NCBI RefSeq assembly: GCF_014635905.1
Contig: NZ_BMDS01000003.1
Location: 1-64,000, forward strand
From: Limosilactobacillus caviae
GTDB taxonomy: Bacteria; Bacillota; Bacilli; Lactobacillales; Lactobacillaceae
Length of the DNA: 64,000 nucleotides
Reading direction: 5' to 3'
In this document: piece by piece, positions 7,299 to 48,079 of the stretch
Numbering within the stretch: the stretch's first letter is position 1
How the letters are laid out: the number at the start of each line of letters is the position of its first letter
Notes under the pieces: generated by a model
Told to the model about the DNA's origin: nothing
What the model saw: the letters and a program-made list of their open reading frames with translations, nothing else
Databases searched by the model: none
Translations under genes and position numbers: made by a program

Positions 7299-7570
7299 AA
7301 CAGTTAAATATAAATCGTTTAAGATGAGTAAAAGTAATGGCGTATTAAGAGAGTTTTCGGCTGGTGTGAGAAAATTACAAAATGCTTTGAAGATGGTCTT
7401 AAAAAATACAGTAATCGTGAGGGATAACTAAGCGGTTAGCGGCTGATATCCGTTATCAAGTATCGAAGTTTGACATGAACTTCCTGAGGCTATCCATGTG
7501 AGTGGGTAGTAAATTAAGGTGGCACCGCGAAAATACTCGTCCTTATTTTGTTAAGGATGGGTATTTTTTT
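7299..7570 (+). promoter_or_regulatory. T-box riboswitch, apparent methionine (AUG) specifier
   Basis: The basal stem I is TTTAAGAT (7318-7325) with GTCTTAAA (7396-7403). The 5' side of the specifier loop has GAGTAAAA. The 3' side reads GAAG followed by ATG (7393-7395) directly before the closing stem. The T-box consensus AGGTGGCACCGCG is at 7517-7529. A terminator stem (AATACTCGTCCTTA pairing with TAAGGATGGGTATT) and a run of T follow to 7570. The specifier is read by analogy with the neighbouring T-box and is less certain than the T-box itself. Confidence 0.87.
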
Positions 7571-7585
7571 ATGGAGGTGAAAGTG

Positions 7586-8371
7586 ATGAAGCGAAAAGTT
7601 GCGTTGGCGCAGATGGATATTCAATTAGGATTACCAGAAGCAAATTATCAAAAAACTGCGCGAGCGATTAAAGCAGCTGCTGATCACCACGCAGATATTA
7701 TTGTCTTACCGGAGATGTGGAATACCGGTTACGCATTAAATAAATTAAAAGATATTGCCGACAATAACGGTCAAAAGACGCAGCAGTTTCTTAGCAAGTT
7801 AGCGCTTGAGAATAAAATTAATATTGTTGGCGGGTCAGTAGCGATTAGGCGTGGAACTTCTTTTTATAATACGAGTTATATTTATGACCAAACCGGACAG
7901 TTAATCGGTACCTATGACAAGGTTCATTTATTTGGCTTAATGGATGAAAATCAATATTTGAAGGCAGGGGTAAAGGAAAGCCACTTTGCGTTAGCTGGAA
8001 TTCCTAGTGCGAGTTTTATTTGCTATGACCTGCGCTTTCCGGAATGGGTCCGCACGACTGCCCGTCACGGTGCTGATATTTTATATTTTCCAGCAGAATG
8101 GCCTAGCAGTCGGATTAAGCAATGGAAGATAATGCTTCAATCCCGTGCAATTGAGAACCAGGCCTTTGTTGTTGCGGTTAATCGGGTCGGCACAGATTTA
8201 GATAATGACTTTAATGGACACTCATTAGTTATCGATCCTCTTGGAAATATTATCAGTGATGCGGGAGAAGAAGAACGAGTAAGTTATGCTGAAGTTGACT
8301 TAGAAAAGCTGGCAGAAGTCCGCGGACCAATCCCGGTATTTAAAGATCGGCGTCCAGAACTTTATCATTAG
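7586..8371 (+). CDS. Carbon-nitrogen hydrolase, omega-amidase-like (MtnU/Nit2 type)
   Basis: A nitrilase-superfamily protein of 261 residues with the catalytic triad Glu43 (LPEMWNTGY), Lys112 (YDKVHLFG) and Cys146 (ICYDLRFPEW). Omega-amidases of this branch hydrolyse 2-oxoglutaramate or 2-oxosuccinamate, the by-products of glutamine or asparagine transaminases. In Bacillus a similar gene is linked to methionine salvage. The ATG at 7586 follows GGAGGTGA; the earlier in-frame GTG lies inside the T-box and is rejected. It is first in an operon with an aminotransferase, which supports the omega-amidase reading, but the substrate is inferred. Confidence 0.82.
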   Translation: MKRKVALAQMDIQLGLPEANYQKTARAIKAAADHHADIIVLPEMWNTGYALNKLKDIADNNGQKTQQFLSKLALENKINIVGGSVAIRRGTSFYNTSYIYDQTGQLIGTYDKVHLFGLMDENQYLKAGVKESHFALAGIPSASFICYDLRFPEWVRTTARHGADILYFPAEWPSSRIKQWKIMLQSRAIENQAFVVAVNRVGTDLDNDFNGHSLVIDPLGNIISDAGEEERVSYAEVDLEKLAEVRGPIPVFKDRRPELYH

Positions 8372-8387
8372 GAAGGAAATGAGAAAA

Positions 8388-9566
8388 ATGAATTTTGAAC
8401 AATCTAAATTACTAGATACACTGCCTAAACAATTTTTTGCAAATTTAGTTGCGAAGGTTAATAAAAAAGTATCAGAAGGCATGGATGTCATTAATCTTGG
8501 TCAGGGTAATCCCGATAAACCGACACCAGACTATATTGTCAAGAGTACGCAAAAATGGGTTGCCGATCCCCAGACACATAAGTATTCGCTCTTTCGTGGC
8601 CTGCCGGCTTTTAAGGAAGCAGCGGCTAAGTTTTATCATGAAAAGTATGGTGCTAGTTTTGACCCGGAAAAGGAAGTAGCAATCTTGGGCGGTTCAAAGA
8701 TCGGCTTAGTGGAGTTGCCATGGGCATTGATGAATCCTGGCGATACCCTGCTTCTTCCGGATCCGGGTTATCCAGATTATCTATCAGGAGCGGCTTTAGG
8801 AAAGGTTAAGTTTGCGACTGTCCCCTTGCTAGCAGAAAATAATTTTTTACCAGATTTGGATGCGATTCCGGACGAAGTTGCCCAACGAGCTAAGTTCTTT
8901 TACCTTAACTATCCTAATAATCCAACAGGGGCAGTTGCAACGCCTGCGTTTTACCAAAAGTTAGTGGCCTGGGCGAAAAAGTACCATGTGGGAATCATTA
9001 GTGATTTTGCATATGGTGCCATCGGGTTTGACGGTCAGACTCCTGTTAGTTTTATGGAAACACCGGGTGCTAAAGATGTGGGAATCGAATTTTATACCTT
9101 TTCTAAGACTTTTAACATGGCTGGCTGGCGGATTGCTTTTGCAGTCGGTAATGAGGATATTATTGAAGCATTAAATCTTATCCAAGATCATTTATTTGTT
9201 AGTCTTTTTCCCGCCTTACAAAAAGCGGCCATTGATGCCCTGACACTACCGGCACGAGATGCGGCAATTACAGAAATTGTTGCTCGCTATGAAGAGAGGC
9301 GGAATGCGTTCATTAATGCTGCAGAAAAAATTGGCTGGCATGCATTTGTTCCCCAAGGTACATTCTATGCTTGGATGCCGGTTCCAACCGGTTATACCAG
9401 CGAAAGCTTTGCAGATCTGTTATTAGATAAAGCCGGGGTTGCAGTGGCGCCAGGTAATGGCTTTGGAACACACGGTGAAGGCTACGTACGGATCGGACTG
9501 TTGATTGAACCAGAACGATTAGTTGAAGCTGTTGAGCGAATTGCTAAGTTGAATCTTTTTAATTAG
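8388..9566 (+). CDS. Class I/II PLP-dependent aminotransferase, possibly methionine/KMTB
   Basis: A 392-residue fold-type I aminotransferase. NLGQGNPDKPTP near the N-terminus, NYPNNPTGA (substrate and PLP contacts), SDFAYGAI and the PLP lysine in FSKTFNMAGWR (Lys240) are all intact. The protein resembles MtnE/YkrV-type enzymes, which aminate the methionine-salvage keto acid KMTB using glutamine. The substrate here is inferred from the preceding omega-amidase and the methionine-type T-box. The ATG at 8388 has a proper distance to GGAAGG; an ATG nine bases upstream is too close. Confidence 0.83.
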   Translation: MNFEQSKLLDTLPKQFFANLVAKVNKKVSEGMDVINLGQGNPDKPTPDYIVKSTQKWVADPQTHKYSLFRGLPAFKEAAAKFYHEKYGASFDPEKEVAILGGSKIGLVELPWALMNPGDTLLLPDPGYPDYLSGAALGKVKFATVPLLAENNFLPDLDAIPDEVAQRAKFFYLNYPNNPTGAVATPAFYQKLVAWAKKYHVGIISDFAYGAIGFDGQTPVSFMETPGAKDVGIEFYTFSKTFNMAGWRIAFAVGNEDIIEALNLIQDHLFVSLFPALQKAAIDALTLPARDAAITEIVARYEERRNAFINAAEKIGWHAFVPQGTFYAWMPVPTGYTSESFADLLLDKAGVAVAPGNGFGTHGEGYVRIGLLIEPERLVEAVERIAKLNLFN

Positions 9567-43604: not shown

Positions 43605-46469
43605 GTGGCAAATGATAAGATTGTAATTCATGGCGCACGGGCACATAACCTAAAAAATATTGATATAACGATTCCAAAAAATAAATTAGTAATTGTTACT
43701 GGGCTGTCTGGATCAGGTAAAAGCTCCCTAGCTTTTGATACTTTATATGCTGAAGGACAGCGGCGCTATGTTGAGAGTTTGTCCGCATATGCCCGCCAGT
43801 TTTTGGGACAGATGGATAAACCGGATGTTGATTCGATTGATGGACTATCGCCGGCTATTTCGATTGACCAAAAAACAACGTCGCATAACCCGCGTTCAAC
43901 TGTCGGAACAGTGACCGAAATTAATGACTTTTTACGGTTATTGTGGGCACGAGTAGGAACGCCGATTTGTCCCAATGATAATATTCCCATTACTAGTCAG
44001 TCACCAGAACAGATGGTGGATAGGGTGCTTAAGTTGCCTGAACGAACTCGTTTACAGATTCTTTCGCCTGTTGTGCGGGATAAAAAAGGAACACAGAAGA
44101 AAGTCTTTGAGACGATTAAACGAGAAGGATTTGTTCGTGTCCAAGTTGATGGCGAAACCTACGACCTTGATTCAGTCCCAGAACTTGATAAAAATAAAAA
44201 GCACACAATTAATGTGGTGATTGATCGGATTATTATCAAGGAAGGTATTCGTTCGCGGTTATTTGATTCGTTTGAAGCAGCATTGCGGTTAAGTAACGGG
44301 TATGCGATTGCTGACGTAATTGGCGGTGACCCCATCCCATTTTCTGAACAATATGCATGTCCAATCTGTGGTTTTACGGTTGGTGAATTGGAACCCCGGT
44401 TGTTTTCGTTCAATGCCCCAACTGGCGCTTGCCCGGAATGTGAGGGATTAGGGTTAAAGTTAGAAGTAGATATCGACTTAGTAGTACCTGATCCAACAAA
44501 GACCTTAAAAGACGGGGCGATTGTGCCGTGGAACCCAATTTCTTCTCAATACTACCCGCAATTGCTTGAACAATTCTGCAAATCGGTTGGTATTGATATG
44601 GATACGCCATTCAATAAGCTGCCTAGAAAACAACAGCAGCAAGTCCTGTATGGCAACGGTGACACGCCATTCCACTTCCATTATGAAAATGACTTTGGCG
44701 GGATTAGGGATGTCGACGTTCCGTTTGAAGGGGTTATTAACAACATTAGCCGTCGTTACCGAGAAACTAATTCTGACTTCACAAGAGAACAGATGAGAAA
44801 ATACATGACAGAACTGCCTTGTCCGGTTTGTCATGGTTATCGGTTAAATCAGCGGGCACTAGCAGTTAAGATCGATGGTCAAAATATTGGAGAAGTTTCT
44901 GACTTGCCGATTAGTGAATCACTTGAATTCTTTAAGAATGTTAAGCTTTCCGATCAAAACGCTAAGATTGCCCAGCCAATTCTGAAAGAAATTATTGACC
45001 GTCTTACGTTCATGAAGAATGTGGGAGTTGAATACCTGACGCTTAGCCGCTCTGCAAGAACCCTTTCTGGTGGGGAGGCTCAGCGGATTCGGCTAGCTAC
45101 TCAAATCGGTTCAAATTTATCTGGGGTAATGTATGTTTTAGATGAGCCATCAATCGGTCTTCATCAACGTGACAATGACCGACTTATTGCATCCCTAAAA
45201 TCGATGCGGGATCTTGGAAATACACTGATTGTGGTTGAACACGATGAAGATACAATGCGGGCAGCTGACTATATTATTGATATTGGACCAGGGGCCGGCG
45301 AAAATGGCGGGCAGGTAATGGCAGCTGGAACTCCTAAGCAAATTATGCGTTCACGGAAATCCTTGACTGGCCAATATTTATCTGGCAAAAAGTTTATTCC
45401 AGTACCGCAAGAACGCCGAACTGGTAATGGTAAAAAAATTACTATAAAGGGAGCAGCTGCAAATAATCTAAAGAATATTACAGTTGATTTCCCGCTTGGC
45501 GAATTTATTTGTGTGACGGGAGTTTCTGGATCTGGAAAATCAACGTTAGTAAACATGATTTTAAAACGAGTGTTAGCCCAGAAATTAAATAATAATTCTG
45601 CAAAGCCCGGTAAGTATAAGTCAATCAGCGGGGTTGAGAATATTGAAAAGGTTATTAATATTGACCAATCCCCAATCGGACGGACTCCACGAAGTAATCC
45701 GGCTACTTATACCGGCGTATTTGATGATATACGCGAATTATTTGCGCAAACTAACCAGGCCAAAATGCGCGGCTATACAAAGGGAAGATTCAGTTTTAAC
45801 GTAAAGGGTGGTCGCTGTGAGGCGTGTCATGGTGATGGAATCCTTAAGATTGAGATGAACTTCTTACCAGACGTATATGTACCGTGTGAAGTTTGTCATG
45901 GCACGCGGTACAATTCAGAAACCCTTGAAGTGGAATACAAGGGTAAGAATATTGCAGAAGTCCTTAATATGACTGTCTCCGAGGCGCTTGAATTTTTTAA
46001 CGCGATTCCTAAAATTAAGCGCAAGTTACAAACCATTGAAGATGTCGGCCTTGGTTATGTTCATCTTGGGCAACCAGCAACAACGCTTTCGGGTGGTGAA
46101 GCGCAGCGAATGAAATTAGCCGCTGAGCTTCATCGTCAGTCTCATGGTAAGAGCTTCTATATTTTAGATGAGCCGACAACAGGATTGCACATGGATGACA
46201 TTAAACGACTATTAGCTGTCCTCCAGCGGTTAGTTGATGCTGGAAATACTGTTTTAGTGATTGAACACGATTTAGATGTTGTAAAGTCAGCAGACTGGTT
46301 AATTGACCTTGGTCCTGAGGGAGGGGCTAACGGTGGTAATATTGTGGCGACCGGAACTCCTGAAAAGGTAGCTGAAGTAAAGGGCAGCTATACTGGTAAA
46401 TACCTAAAAGAGATGTTGGACCGTGATCAAAAATGGGCAGAAGAACGAGCAACTAAAAAGAAAAAATAA
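43605..46469 (+). CDS. uvrA: Excinuclease ABC subunit A
   Basis: A 954-residue UvrA with two ABC ATPase modules ([23 protein letters not shown] and [12 protein letters not shown]), two signature motifs ([31 protein letters not shown]), and zinc fingers (CPICGF...[14 protein letters not shown]...CEVCHG). It loads UvrB at lesions. The start is GTG behind GGAGGG. The C-terminus is Lys-rich, as usual. Confidence 0.98.
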
Positions 46470-46477
46470 AAAAGTAG

Positions 46478-46506
46478 TTGCAATCAAAAAGTTCTAATGG
46501 TATTCT
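46478..46506 (+). promoter_or_regulatory. Promoter of the serine-leader attenuator
   Basis: TTGCAA (46478-46483), a 17-base spacer and TATTCT (46501-46506), placed right after uvrA and about 37 bases before the leader-peptide start. Confidence 0.6.
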
Positions 46507-46542
46507 AATAAAAATCAAAGTACACGAAATGAGGGAAATATA

Positions 46543-46614
46543 ATGTTACGATTTAATAAACAAAATCAACAACTTTCTTCCTCCTCAGCCTCTAACTCTA
46601 TTAAGGCTGAGTGA
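46543..46614 (+). CDS. Serine-rich leader peptide (23 codons)
   Basis: An ATG behind GAGGGA opens a 23-codon frame ending in TGA. Codons 12-19 read Ser-Ser-Ser-Ser-Ala-Ser-Asn-Ser: six serine codons in eight, all of the UCN type. Right over these codons and the following ones lies a perfect 8-base hairpin (46584-46591 with 46604-46611) that ends one base before the stop codon, and a terminator follows. This is the layout of a ribosome-sensing attenuator peptide. The next gene encodes a SteT-like serine/threonine transporter. The peptide itself probably has no other function. Confidence 0.75.
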   Translation: MLRFNKQNQQLSSSSASNSIKAE

Positions 46615-46719
46615 TTTTGGTGTACCCAATCAATAGGTGTTAAACAAACTCGGGTTCTCTATTAATCATTTGGCATGTCCGAAGTGTATTAATAGTTGAA
46701 ATTCCGGGTTTTTTATTTT
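46584..46719 (+). promoter_or_regulatory. Attenuator: pause hairpin, antiterminator option and terminator
   Basis: Hairpin A is CTCAGCCT/AGGCTGAG. The terminator is a long stem: AAACTCGGG (46646-46654) with CCGGGTTTT region (46704-46711 and next), then CTATTAAT (46659-46666) with ATTAATAG (46688-46695), ending in a T run (46709-46719, one A inside). CTGAGT (46607-46612) can instead pair with ACTCGG (46648-46653), which would break the terminator's 5' arm. A ribosome stalled on the Ser codons would block hairpin A and free CTGAGT. The pairings are by eye; no energies were calculated. Confidence 0.7.
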
Positions 46720-46747
46720 GCCTAATATTAAGAATGGAGGAATGATG

Positions 46748-48079
46748 ATGAATCAACAACCAGCGGATGAATTAAAAAGGGCGCTTGGATTTTGGTCTGC
46801 CATTTCAATTGTGGTGGGGACCATTATTGGGTCGGGAATATTCTTTAAGCAAGGCTCTGTTCTTGATAGTGCTGGAACATCGACTCTTGCAATCGCTGCT
46901 TGGGTTTTCGGGGGAATTATTACCCTGACTGGTGGGCTAACAGTTGCCGAAATCGGAGCTCAGATGCCATATACCGGTGGGCTTTACGTATATATTGAAA
47001 ATATTTATGGCCGGATTCTCGGCTTCCTGGCTGGGTGGATGCAGGTAATTGTATACGGTCCCGCGATTATTGCTTCGGTTGCCGGTTTTATGAGTATTTT
47101 AATGGCTAACTTTTTTGGCCTGGGAGCACAATGGCGAATACCATTGGCAGTAATTACAGTTGTTGCAATCGGAATAATGAATTTATTTGAAAATAAAGTC
47201 GGTGCAATTTTTTCAATTATCACAACAGCAGGTAAAATGATTCCGATTGCTGCTATTATCATTTTTGGCCTTTTCTGGGGTCAGCAAGACGCTTTTGGAC
47301 AAACTGTTACAGAAATTCATCAATCAACTGGTGGCTTTGGGGTAGCGGTTTTAGCAACATTATTTGGTTATGATGGCTGGATTTTAATTGCTAACCTTGG
47401 TGGTGAAATGAAGAATCCGCAAAAGCTGCTTCCTCGCGCTATTATCTTAGGAATTACTGCGGTATTAATTATCTATACCTTAATTACTATTGGAATCCTT
47501 AAATTTCTTCCTGTTAATACAATTCATCGATTAGGTGAAAATGCAACAGCCTATCTAGCTGTTAAAGCCTTTGGGGCAATCGGCGGTAAGTTATTATCAG
47601 CTGGTATTATTATTTCGATGATGGGGACATTAAACGGGAAAATGATTACGTTCCCGCGGATTGTCTATGCCATGGCTCGTCGACGCGACTTACCATTCTC
47701 ACGATATCTCTCGTACATTACACCTAAAGGAAAGTCACCGGTTGTTGCAACAATGTTTATTATTGTGTTAGCAACAATCATGATGTGCTTCTTTGATCCT
47801 GATCATTTATCAGATTTATGTGTGTTTACTGTATATTGTTTCTATTTACTAGCATTTTTTGGTATCTTCATTTTAAGACGAAAGAATAAGGAACCGCGAC
47901 CATTTAGCACGCCGCTTTACCCCCTTGTCCCGATTATTGCGATTGCGGGTGGGATTTTTATCCTCGTAAGTGAAGTTATGAATGATCCGGCTGGTGTAAT
48001 TCTTTTTATAGGGATTGTTATTGTCGGATTGCCAATTCTATACATTGTTAAGCGGATGGATCAACGGCGGATGCATTAG
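46748..48079 (+). CDS. SteT-like L-type amino acid (serine/threonine) transporter
   Basis: A 443-residue APC protein with 12 hydrophobic segments. WSAISIVVGTIIGSGIFFKQGSVL is the substrate-binding start of helix 1, and FGYDGWILIANLGGEMKNPQKLLPRAI is typical of the LAT branch that includes Bacillus SteT (YkbA), an L-serine/L-threonine exchanger. Three ATGs occur in a row; the third (46748) has the best spacing to GGAGG. The serine-codon leader upstream supports a serine-related substrate. It is a single-gene unit. Confidence 0.85.
   Translation: MNQQPADELKRALGFWSAISIVVGTIIGSGIFFKQGSVLDSAGTSTLAIAAWVFGGIITLTGGLTVAEIGAQMPYTGGLYVYIENIYGRILGFLAGWMQVIVYGPAIIASVAGFMSILMANFFGLGAQWRIPLAVITVVAIGIMNLFENKVGAIFSIITTAGKMIPIAAIIIFGLFWGQQDAFGQTVTEIHQSTGGFGVAVLATLFGYDGWILIANLGGEMKNPQKLLPRAIILGITAVLIIYTLITIGILKFLPVNTIHRLGENATAYLAVKAFGAIGGKLLSAGIIISMMGTLNGKMITFPRIVYAMARRRDLPFSRYLSYITPKGKSPVVATMFIIVLATIMMCFFDPDHLSDLCVFTVYCFYLLAFFGIFILRRKNKEPRPFSTPLYPLVPIIAIAGGIFILVSEVMNDPAGVILFIGIVIVGLPILYIVKRMDQRRMH

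Follow-up and report, generated by a model that had tools for sequence, protein, structure and literature searches.

Between the end (position 46469) of a gene that we take to be uvrA, judging its ORF sequence by eye, and a downstream exchanger gene, the window (the whole 64,000-nucleotide stretch of Limosilactobacillus caviae DNA analysed here) contains a short ORF rich in serine codons and a putative switch RNA. The question raised by this locus is whether translation of the leader ORF decides if transcription reaches the exchanger gene. In our best reading, the region is very probably a ribosome-mediated transcription attenuator; the signal it senses would be charged tRNA-Ser, and its target a serine (Ala-Ser-Cys type) exchanger. 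Three other explanations are weighed below against the evidence that bears on them.

Organization of the leader region and the exchanger gene

The features of the locus are listed in Table 1. The candidate promoter matches the consensus at 4 + 4 = 8 of 12 bases, which is plausible but weak, and is absent from a simple promoter scan that demands 9 of 12 consensus bases; the block TTCTAATGGTATTCTAAT of the promoter region is visible in many relatives among the rows listed. The leader peptide is MLRFNKQNQQLSSSSASNSIKAE. Its codons 12–19 (TCT TCC TCC TCA GCC TCT AAC TCT) include six UCN serine codons in eight, and the final base of the leader hairpin directly precedes the TGA stop codon (46612–46614). 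A comparable serine-run ORF with a Shine-Dalgarno (SD) sequence appeared in 7 of 2,000 dinucleotide shuffles of the upstream region, and an NCBIfam scan of the leader peptide found no family.

Table 1. Sequence features of the leader region and the exchanger gene (window coordinates)
Feature	Coordinates	Strand	Description
Promoter-like element	46478..46506	+	TTGCAA 46478-46483, 17 bp, TATTCT 46501-46506, TG upstream
Shine-Dalgarno of leader ORF	46531..46535	+	GAGGG, read directly
Leader peptide ORF, 23 codons	46543..46614	+	Ser run at codons 12-19
Leader hairpin (1:2), 8 pairs	46584..46611	+	46584-46591 with 46604-46611
Antiterminator helix (2:3)	46606..46674	+	46606-46616 with 46664-46674
Antiterminator inner extension	46624..46655	+	ACCC 46624-46627 with GGGT 46652-46655 in this sequence
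Intrinsic terminator (3:4)	about 46646..46719	+	T-rich tract 46709-46719; single-sequence folds
Transporter Shine-Dalgarno	46736..46741	+	GGAGGA, read directly; conserved in alignment A1
LAT-family exchanger (BasC-like), presumed regulated gene	46745..48079	+	Pfam and PDB matches

The terminator is interrupted, has a fold z-score of -2.54 and is absent from a simple terminator scan. About 25 bases lie between its end and the ATG at 46745, one of three in-frame ATGs (46742, 46745, and 46748) that are possible starts of the exchanger. When 40 relatives were folded singly, hairpins were found ahead of T-rich stretches, while RNAalifold returned no structure for the terminator part of alignment A1 (defined below), probably because gaps shift the 3' arms out of register. 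Direct reading bears out the promoter-like element, the 23-codon ORF with its ribosome site and the serine codons described in the initial annotation, as well as the perfect 8-base hairpin that it placed over these codons up to the stop; the long terminator that it drew before the transporter agrees with the fold.

The exchanger matches Pfam AA_permease_2 (E 1.6e-57), and its closest solved relative is BasC (PDB 6f2g; E 1.4e-83 over residues 18–437), a relation that places it in the LAT class. At NCBIfam, 23 models match the protein, none at its cut-off. BasC is described, in the accessible part of the source, as an alanine-serine-cysteine exchanger (PMC6472337); the likeness of the window protein to it is one of protein sequence only, from which we infer a serine (Ala-Ser-Cys type) substrate.

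Conservation of the leader and its serine codons

A DNA search matched 53 of 95 genomes; the same genus, with 50 genomes searched, accounts for 47 of the 53. Leaders were counted when a short ORF with an SD-like string had at least four serines in eight codons and ended 80–160 bases before the gene; one place whose gene start is missing (L073) was dropped. Serine-run leaders were present upstream of the transporter in 35 of the 47 same-genus genomes, in line with the retention of the serine codons and the start codon that the initial annotation had named in advance as a test. Among 78 distinct upstream sequences, the leader was found in 44 of 59 at >=70% protein identity and in 1 of 19 below that level. 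The 12 genomes of the genus in which the leader is missing comprise ten with other upstream DNA and no leader seen, and two special cases. In the first (L007, genome G042), one T in the first half of the leader shifts its frame by +1, the DNA immediately upstream is different, and the downstream RNA still matches the covariance model with 92.1 bits. In the second (L019, genome G017), the entire leader, promoter, and terminator have been deleted cleanly such that the uvrA TAG abuts the transporter ATG, and the exchanger should therefore be tied to uvrA transcription.

In the genus of Lactobacillus johnsonii, a close homologue (E <=1e-140) is present in 18 of 61 genomes, and serine-run leaders, e.g. 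MFILHTMQFSSSSSSSSS, precede it at 19 of 22 places. The three leaderless places (L146, L147, and L148), each in a different Lactobacillus genome, are tandem second copies located directly upstream of a copy with a serine leader. A similar scan of 50 regions from other genera (L189–L238), used as a base rate, yielded no serine or asparagine run and one isoleucine-rich match (L224). With strict filters, covariance model R1 (built from 17 sequences) detected the RNA in 14 of 301 Lactobacillaceae genomes, in two of 38 genera, but this model is insensitive and missed three genomes (G013, G031, and G040) whose serine leaders the ORF scan finds. In the window's own genome, the next match, taken as chance (20.7 bits, E 0.355), gave no second RNA copy. 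One record titled Bacteroides sp. MAG (L056) contains a Lactobacillus-like exchanger with a serine leader, and its nearest neighbour in the tree is G362 of the Lactobacillus genus; this record is probably mislabelled or a mixed bin.

The codon usage of the run was compared among 58 distinct leaders. These leaders were picked by their serine run, so the serine excess is itself no test; position, SD sequence, frame, and codon mixing serve as tests instead. Within windows of up to eight codons, TCC occurs 126 times, TCT 110, TCA 86, AGT 22, and AGC 15, and UCN and AGY codons are mixed inside the run in 28 of the 58 leaders. Since no single base change joins the two codon sets with serine kept, it is serine, and not a base string, that is conserved. 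Before the run, only 7 of 509 residues are serine. In 53 of the 58 leaders, a GTGATT-like motif (loose pattern) lies 24–38 nt downstream of the first serine codon; two leaders are outliers and three have no such motif. Given the usual size of a ribosome footprint, a ribosome on the first serine codons should at this distance free the antiterminator strand, and a ribosome at the stop codon should cover it.

The same run could act through its peptide rather than its codons. Antibiotic-resistance leaders are known to arrest ribosomes through their peptide and to use the same RNA logic, and a poly-serine nascent peptide might cause stalling when a small molecule or a stress, instead of tRNA-Ser charging, is the signal; the run is indeed compact and often holds four consecutive serines. 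However, the rest of the leader peptide differs in length and sequence among lineages, the composition of the run drifts (SSSSASNS, SSSTTTTS, and SSSSSSSSS), with SSSTTTTS and SSSTTTS in two leaders of the same genus (L102 and L109), and asparagine or serine/threonine occupies the same place in the Weissella copies described below. We regard arrest by the peptide as improbable.

The sequence UUCCUCC at the start of the serine run (46578–46584) is complementary to GGAGGAA at the transporter SD (46736–46742), and the RNAalifold consensus of A1 pairs the two, with no pair doubly changed. A second, translational layer of control through this pairing is possible.

Alternative helices and the proposed switch

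Of the 45 distinct leaders used in a single-sequence duplex test, 25 were placed in alignment A1 (24 distinct sequences), 15 others in A2, and nine of those 15 in A4; the frameshifted and deleted loci L007 and L019 were left out. In A1, the leader hairpin is paired in 99.5% of 192 cells with one pair changed on both sides, and its covariation score, reached by 6 of 500 shuffles, is modest. In nine clade B sequences, all 63 cells of the hairpin are paired, and two of its pairs are doubly changed (5 of 500 shuffles).

The antiterminator, in which GCTGAGTGATT pairs with AATCATTTGGC, is paired in 264 of 264 cells across the 24 distinct sequences, in comparison with 19–50% for slid versions of the same helix in A1. 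Two of its pairs are changed on both sides (A-U replaces G-C in three sequences and C-G replaces U-A in one), a number reached by 22 of 500 shuffles, and its covariation score was reached by none of 500. Seven of the 11 pairs are invariant and uninformative either way; this covariation rests on few changes (four cells). The inner extension, taken as an 8-pair helix, is paired in 77.6% of cells and has three doubly changed pairs, including A-U to G-C in six sequences. RNAalifold, unaided, found a four-pair core of this extension together with part of the main antiterminator helix. The nine clade B sequences carry an antiterminator in a shifted register, e.g. TGGTTGAGTGATTTGG with CCGGATTCACTTAACCA in L057, in which 87.2% of 141 cells are paired; its covariation is weak (19 of 500 shuffles), with more doubly changed pairs in the versions slid by +1 and +3. 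A further group (L052, L097, and L103) has another sequence in the same arrangement.

Most duplexes fail to outdo shuffled targets when tested one sequence at a time; the case for the antiterminator is comparative. In 15 of the 45 leaders, at most 10 of 200 shuffled targets were as good, and only two of these 15 are among the 25 rows of A1; the values were 39 of 200 for L001 and 135 of 200 for L020. L068 and L071 formed their best duplex with the 3' arm, and L020 formed its best one elsewhere.

Two pairings put forward in the initial annotation did not hold up as conserved elements. CTGAGT can pair with ACTCGG in this sequence, as had been claimed, but among relatives this helix is paired in 74.3% of 144 cells with no double change, and it was rejected as the conserved switch in favour of GCTGAGTGATT with AATCATTTGGC plus ACCC with GGGT. 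The nonamer CTCTATTAA does occur twice, at 46596 and 46657, but only two of the 25 A1 rows carry it twice, and the alternative pairing proposed for them was set aside. Serine-dependent ribosome stalling, as originally suggested, remains the best-supported reading.

Folding energies were calculated for several stages. With a ribosome covering the RNA up to 46600 and the polymerase at 46690, the minimum-energy structure (-18.3) contains the whole antiterminator and its extension. Without a ribosome, the leader hairpin and a shortened antiterminator coexist until the 3' arm is made, and the switch is therefore not clean in a static fold. For the full leader with a stalled ribosome, the terminator (-31.6) is favoured over the forced antiterminator (-21.0). 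As the terminator wins at equilibrium even in this state, the switch must act during transcription, by kinetic trapping; the trp attenuator is likewise held to act while its RNA is being made.

In the proposed mechanism, transcription would start near 46513 and a ribosome would translate the leader. When seryl-tRNA is sufficient, the ribosome would proceed to the stop codon at 46612 and either cover GGCTGAGTGATT or leave its first part in the leader hairpin, the terminator would form, and no exchanger would be made. When seryl-tRNA is short, the ribosome is expected to stall on the serine run and to mask the 5' arm of the leader hairpin, freeing GCTGAGTGATT, which could then pair with AATCATTTGGC in the 5' arm of the terminator, aided by ACCC with GGGT, before the 3' arm exists. 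Once the antiterminator has formed, transcription would run on into the exchanger gene.

The equilibrium dominance of the terminator also fits another explanation, in which the hairpin is constitutive and serves only to set a basal level of expression or to end transcripts of uvrA, and the ORF is incidental, the serine run being a by-product of a pyrimidine-rich pairing strand. The serine codons do overlap the CTCAGCC arm of the hairpin, the UUCCUCC noted above pairs with the transporter SD in the consensus fold, and TCC makes up 126 of 359 serine codons in the leader runs vs. 8 of 103 in three neighbouring genes. Against this, AGY codons and codon-length changes preserve both serine and the frame among the leaders, the ORF and its SD sequence are maintained in 35 of 47 genomes, and complete pairing of the antiterminator is unexpected for a constitutive terminator; an incidental ORF appears slightly less probable still than peptide arrest. 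A T-box or another direct RNA sensor at the locus can be dismissed almost entirely because, although T-boxes are common in lactobacilli and the window has one (RF00230), it is the sole T-box match within the window and lies at 7312–7547, no Rfam family reaches its gathering score at the locus, and a search of 46470–46800 at E up to 10 gave only six unrelated, chance-level matches and no T-box.

The distant T-box leader (98.8 bits) overlaps the listed start of ORF 7502–8371, which is presumably nitrilase/amidase-like and is followed by ORF 8379–9566, presumably aminotransferase-like; both names were judged from sequence.

To return to attenuation by charged tRNA-Ser, the locus shows the features of this class: a conserved codon run for one amino acid in an ORF with a ribosome site, a hairpin overlapping these codons, a terminator before the gene, and an antiterminator competing with both the terminator 5' arm and the leader hairpin, the single-sequence duplex being weak for most rows. 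The ORF, the serine codons, the three alternative helices, the terminator, and the gene order are established by sequence comparison, and by all tests that compare sequences of relatives the attenuator is real, conserved, and serine-coded.

Re-coded leaders in Weissella and relation to known attenuators

When model R1 was run on 52 loci, it gave a borderline match in Weissella (L087, E 0.0095), which led to the leaders of the Weissella exchangers (about 50% identity), e.g. MIWNVNNNNNNNDNLHSNANCDWVV (L090), MIYIYVTSIDDNNDDRSYSFTS (L087), and MIFEYAILVDTNDDNRSYSFTC (L089). Identity to L090 and L089 assigns the genus concerned (g40) to Weissella. Of its 14 first-copy places, seven have a run of five to six asparagines, one has DTNDDN, and six have no run. 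Eight of the 10 second copies have Ser/Thr-rich leaders (TSSDST, TSRSTS, STTSTSS, and similar; four of the eight were judged by eye) and two have none. An Asn(/Asp) leader at one copy and a Ser/Thr leader at the other were found together in 6 of 10 two-copy genomes (G215, G274, G290, G320, G333, and G345). The AAT repeats of the Weissella leaders could be a microsatellite; yet AAC interrupts several of them, and L087 and L089 mix in aspartate. In the Weissella duplex test, at most 10 of 200 shuffles were as good in 6 of 18 leaders (191 of 200 in L185), and the test is not clean since some rows (L149, L150, and L156) gave the terminator's own stem as their best duplex.

In a tree of 93 of the 96 proteins (L152, L246, and L258, labelled as having no leader, were left out), the two Weissella copies fall into sister clades (SH-aLRT 97 for each and 98 for the node uniting them) that are separate from the serine clade of Limosilactobacillus and Lactobacillus. 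The leader labels require 7 changes on this tree vs. a mean of 41.0 for shuffled labels, where rows were chosen, labels were set by hand, the tree was made by a quick method with long branches flagged, and near-copies on their own make labels cluster. At a level of 90% within each clade, ten columns tell the two Weissella clades apart. Four of these (213, 214, 218, and 219) are located beside the FxYDGW motif, where residues 213–219 (window protein numbering) include AT and LG in proteins with Ser/Thr leaders vs. IL and IA in those with Asn leaders; these residues are possible specificity determinants of the Weissella paralogues. We lean slightly towards the view that the leader codons label the substrate, i.e. 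that the Weissella copies are switched by shortage of Asn(/Asp) and Ser/Thr, respectively, and the Limosilactobacillus and Lactobacillus orthologues by shortage of serine.

As far as we know, the leader-peptide attenuators described to date mostly control biosynthetic operons. The trp, his, leu, and ilv attenuators of Escherichia coli (see PMC1183508) have the same ORF with regulatory codons, hairpin over the codons, and mutually exclusive antiterminator and terminator, whereas the codons here specify serine and the gene encodes an exchanger rather than a biosynthetic operon. According to the available portion of PMC5794164, the leucine-rich attenuator peptide of Staphylococcus aureus ilv-leu likewise provides a Firmicute example of ribosome-mediated attenuation, backed in that case by terminator mutants and by mutation of a Leu codon; it differs in its Leu codons and its biosynthetic operon from the Ser codons and exchanger found here. 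For branched-chain amino acid genes, the part of PMC6123439 at hand reports experimental evidence for ribosome-mediated attenuation in S. aureus and Listeria monocytogenes and predictions for Lactococcus lactis, Corynebacterium glutamicum, and Streptococcus. In Bacillus subtilis sinR (PMC3862929, accessible part), UCN serine codons likewise make translation answer to the state of the cell, but they are located in the repressor gene, whereas those here belong to a leader peptide followed by a terminator. Full-text searches of open-access papers showed no leader attenuator coded for serine or asparagine ahead of a transporter, which is not proof that none is in print.

The attenuator described here would guard serine uptake or exchange in gut lactobacilli. 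If the leader codons name the substrate, leaders would predict the physiological substrates of exchangers that are indistinguishable by sequence, and such exchangers might be assigned from a peptide of ~20 residues. The pair of Asn and Ser/Thr leaders inside one Weissella cell would provide a ready-made internal control.
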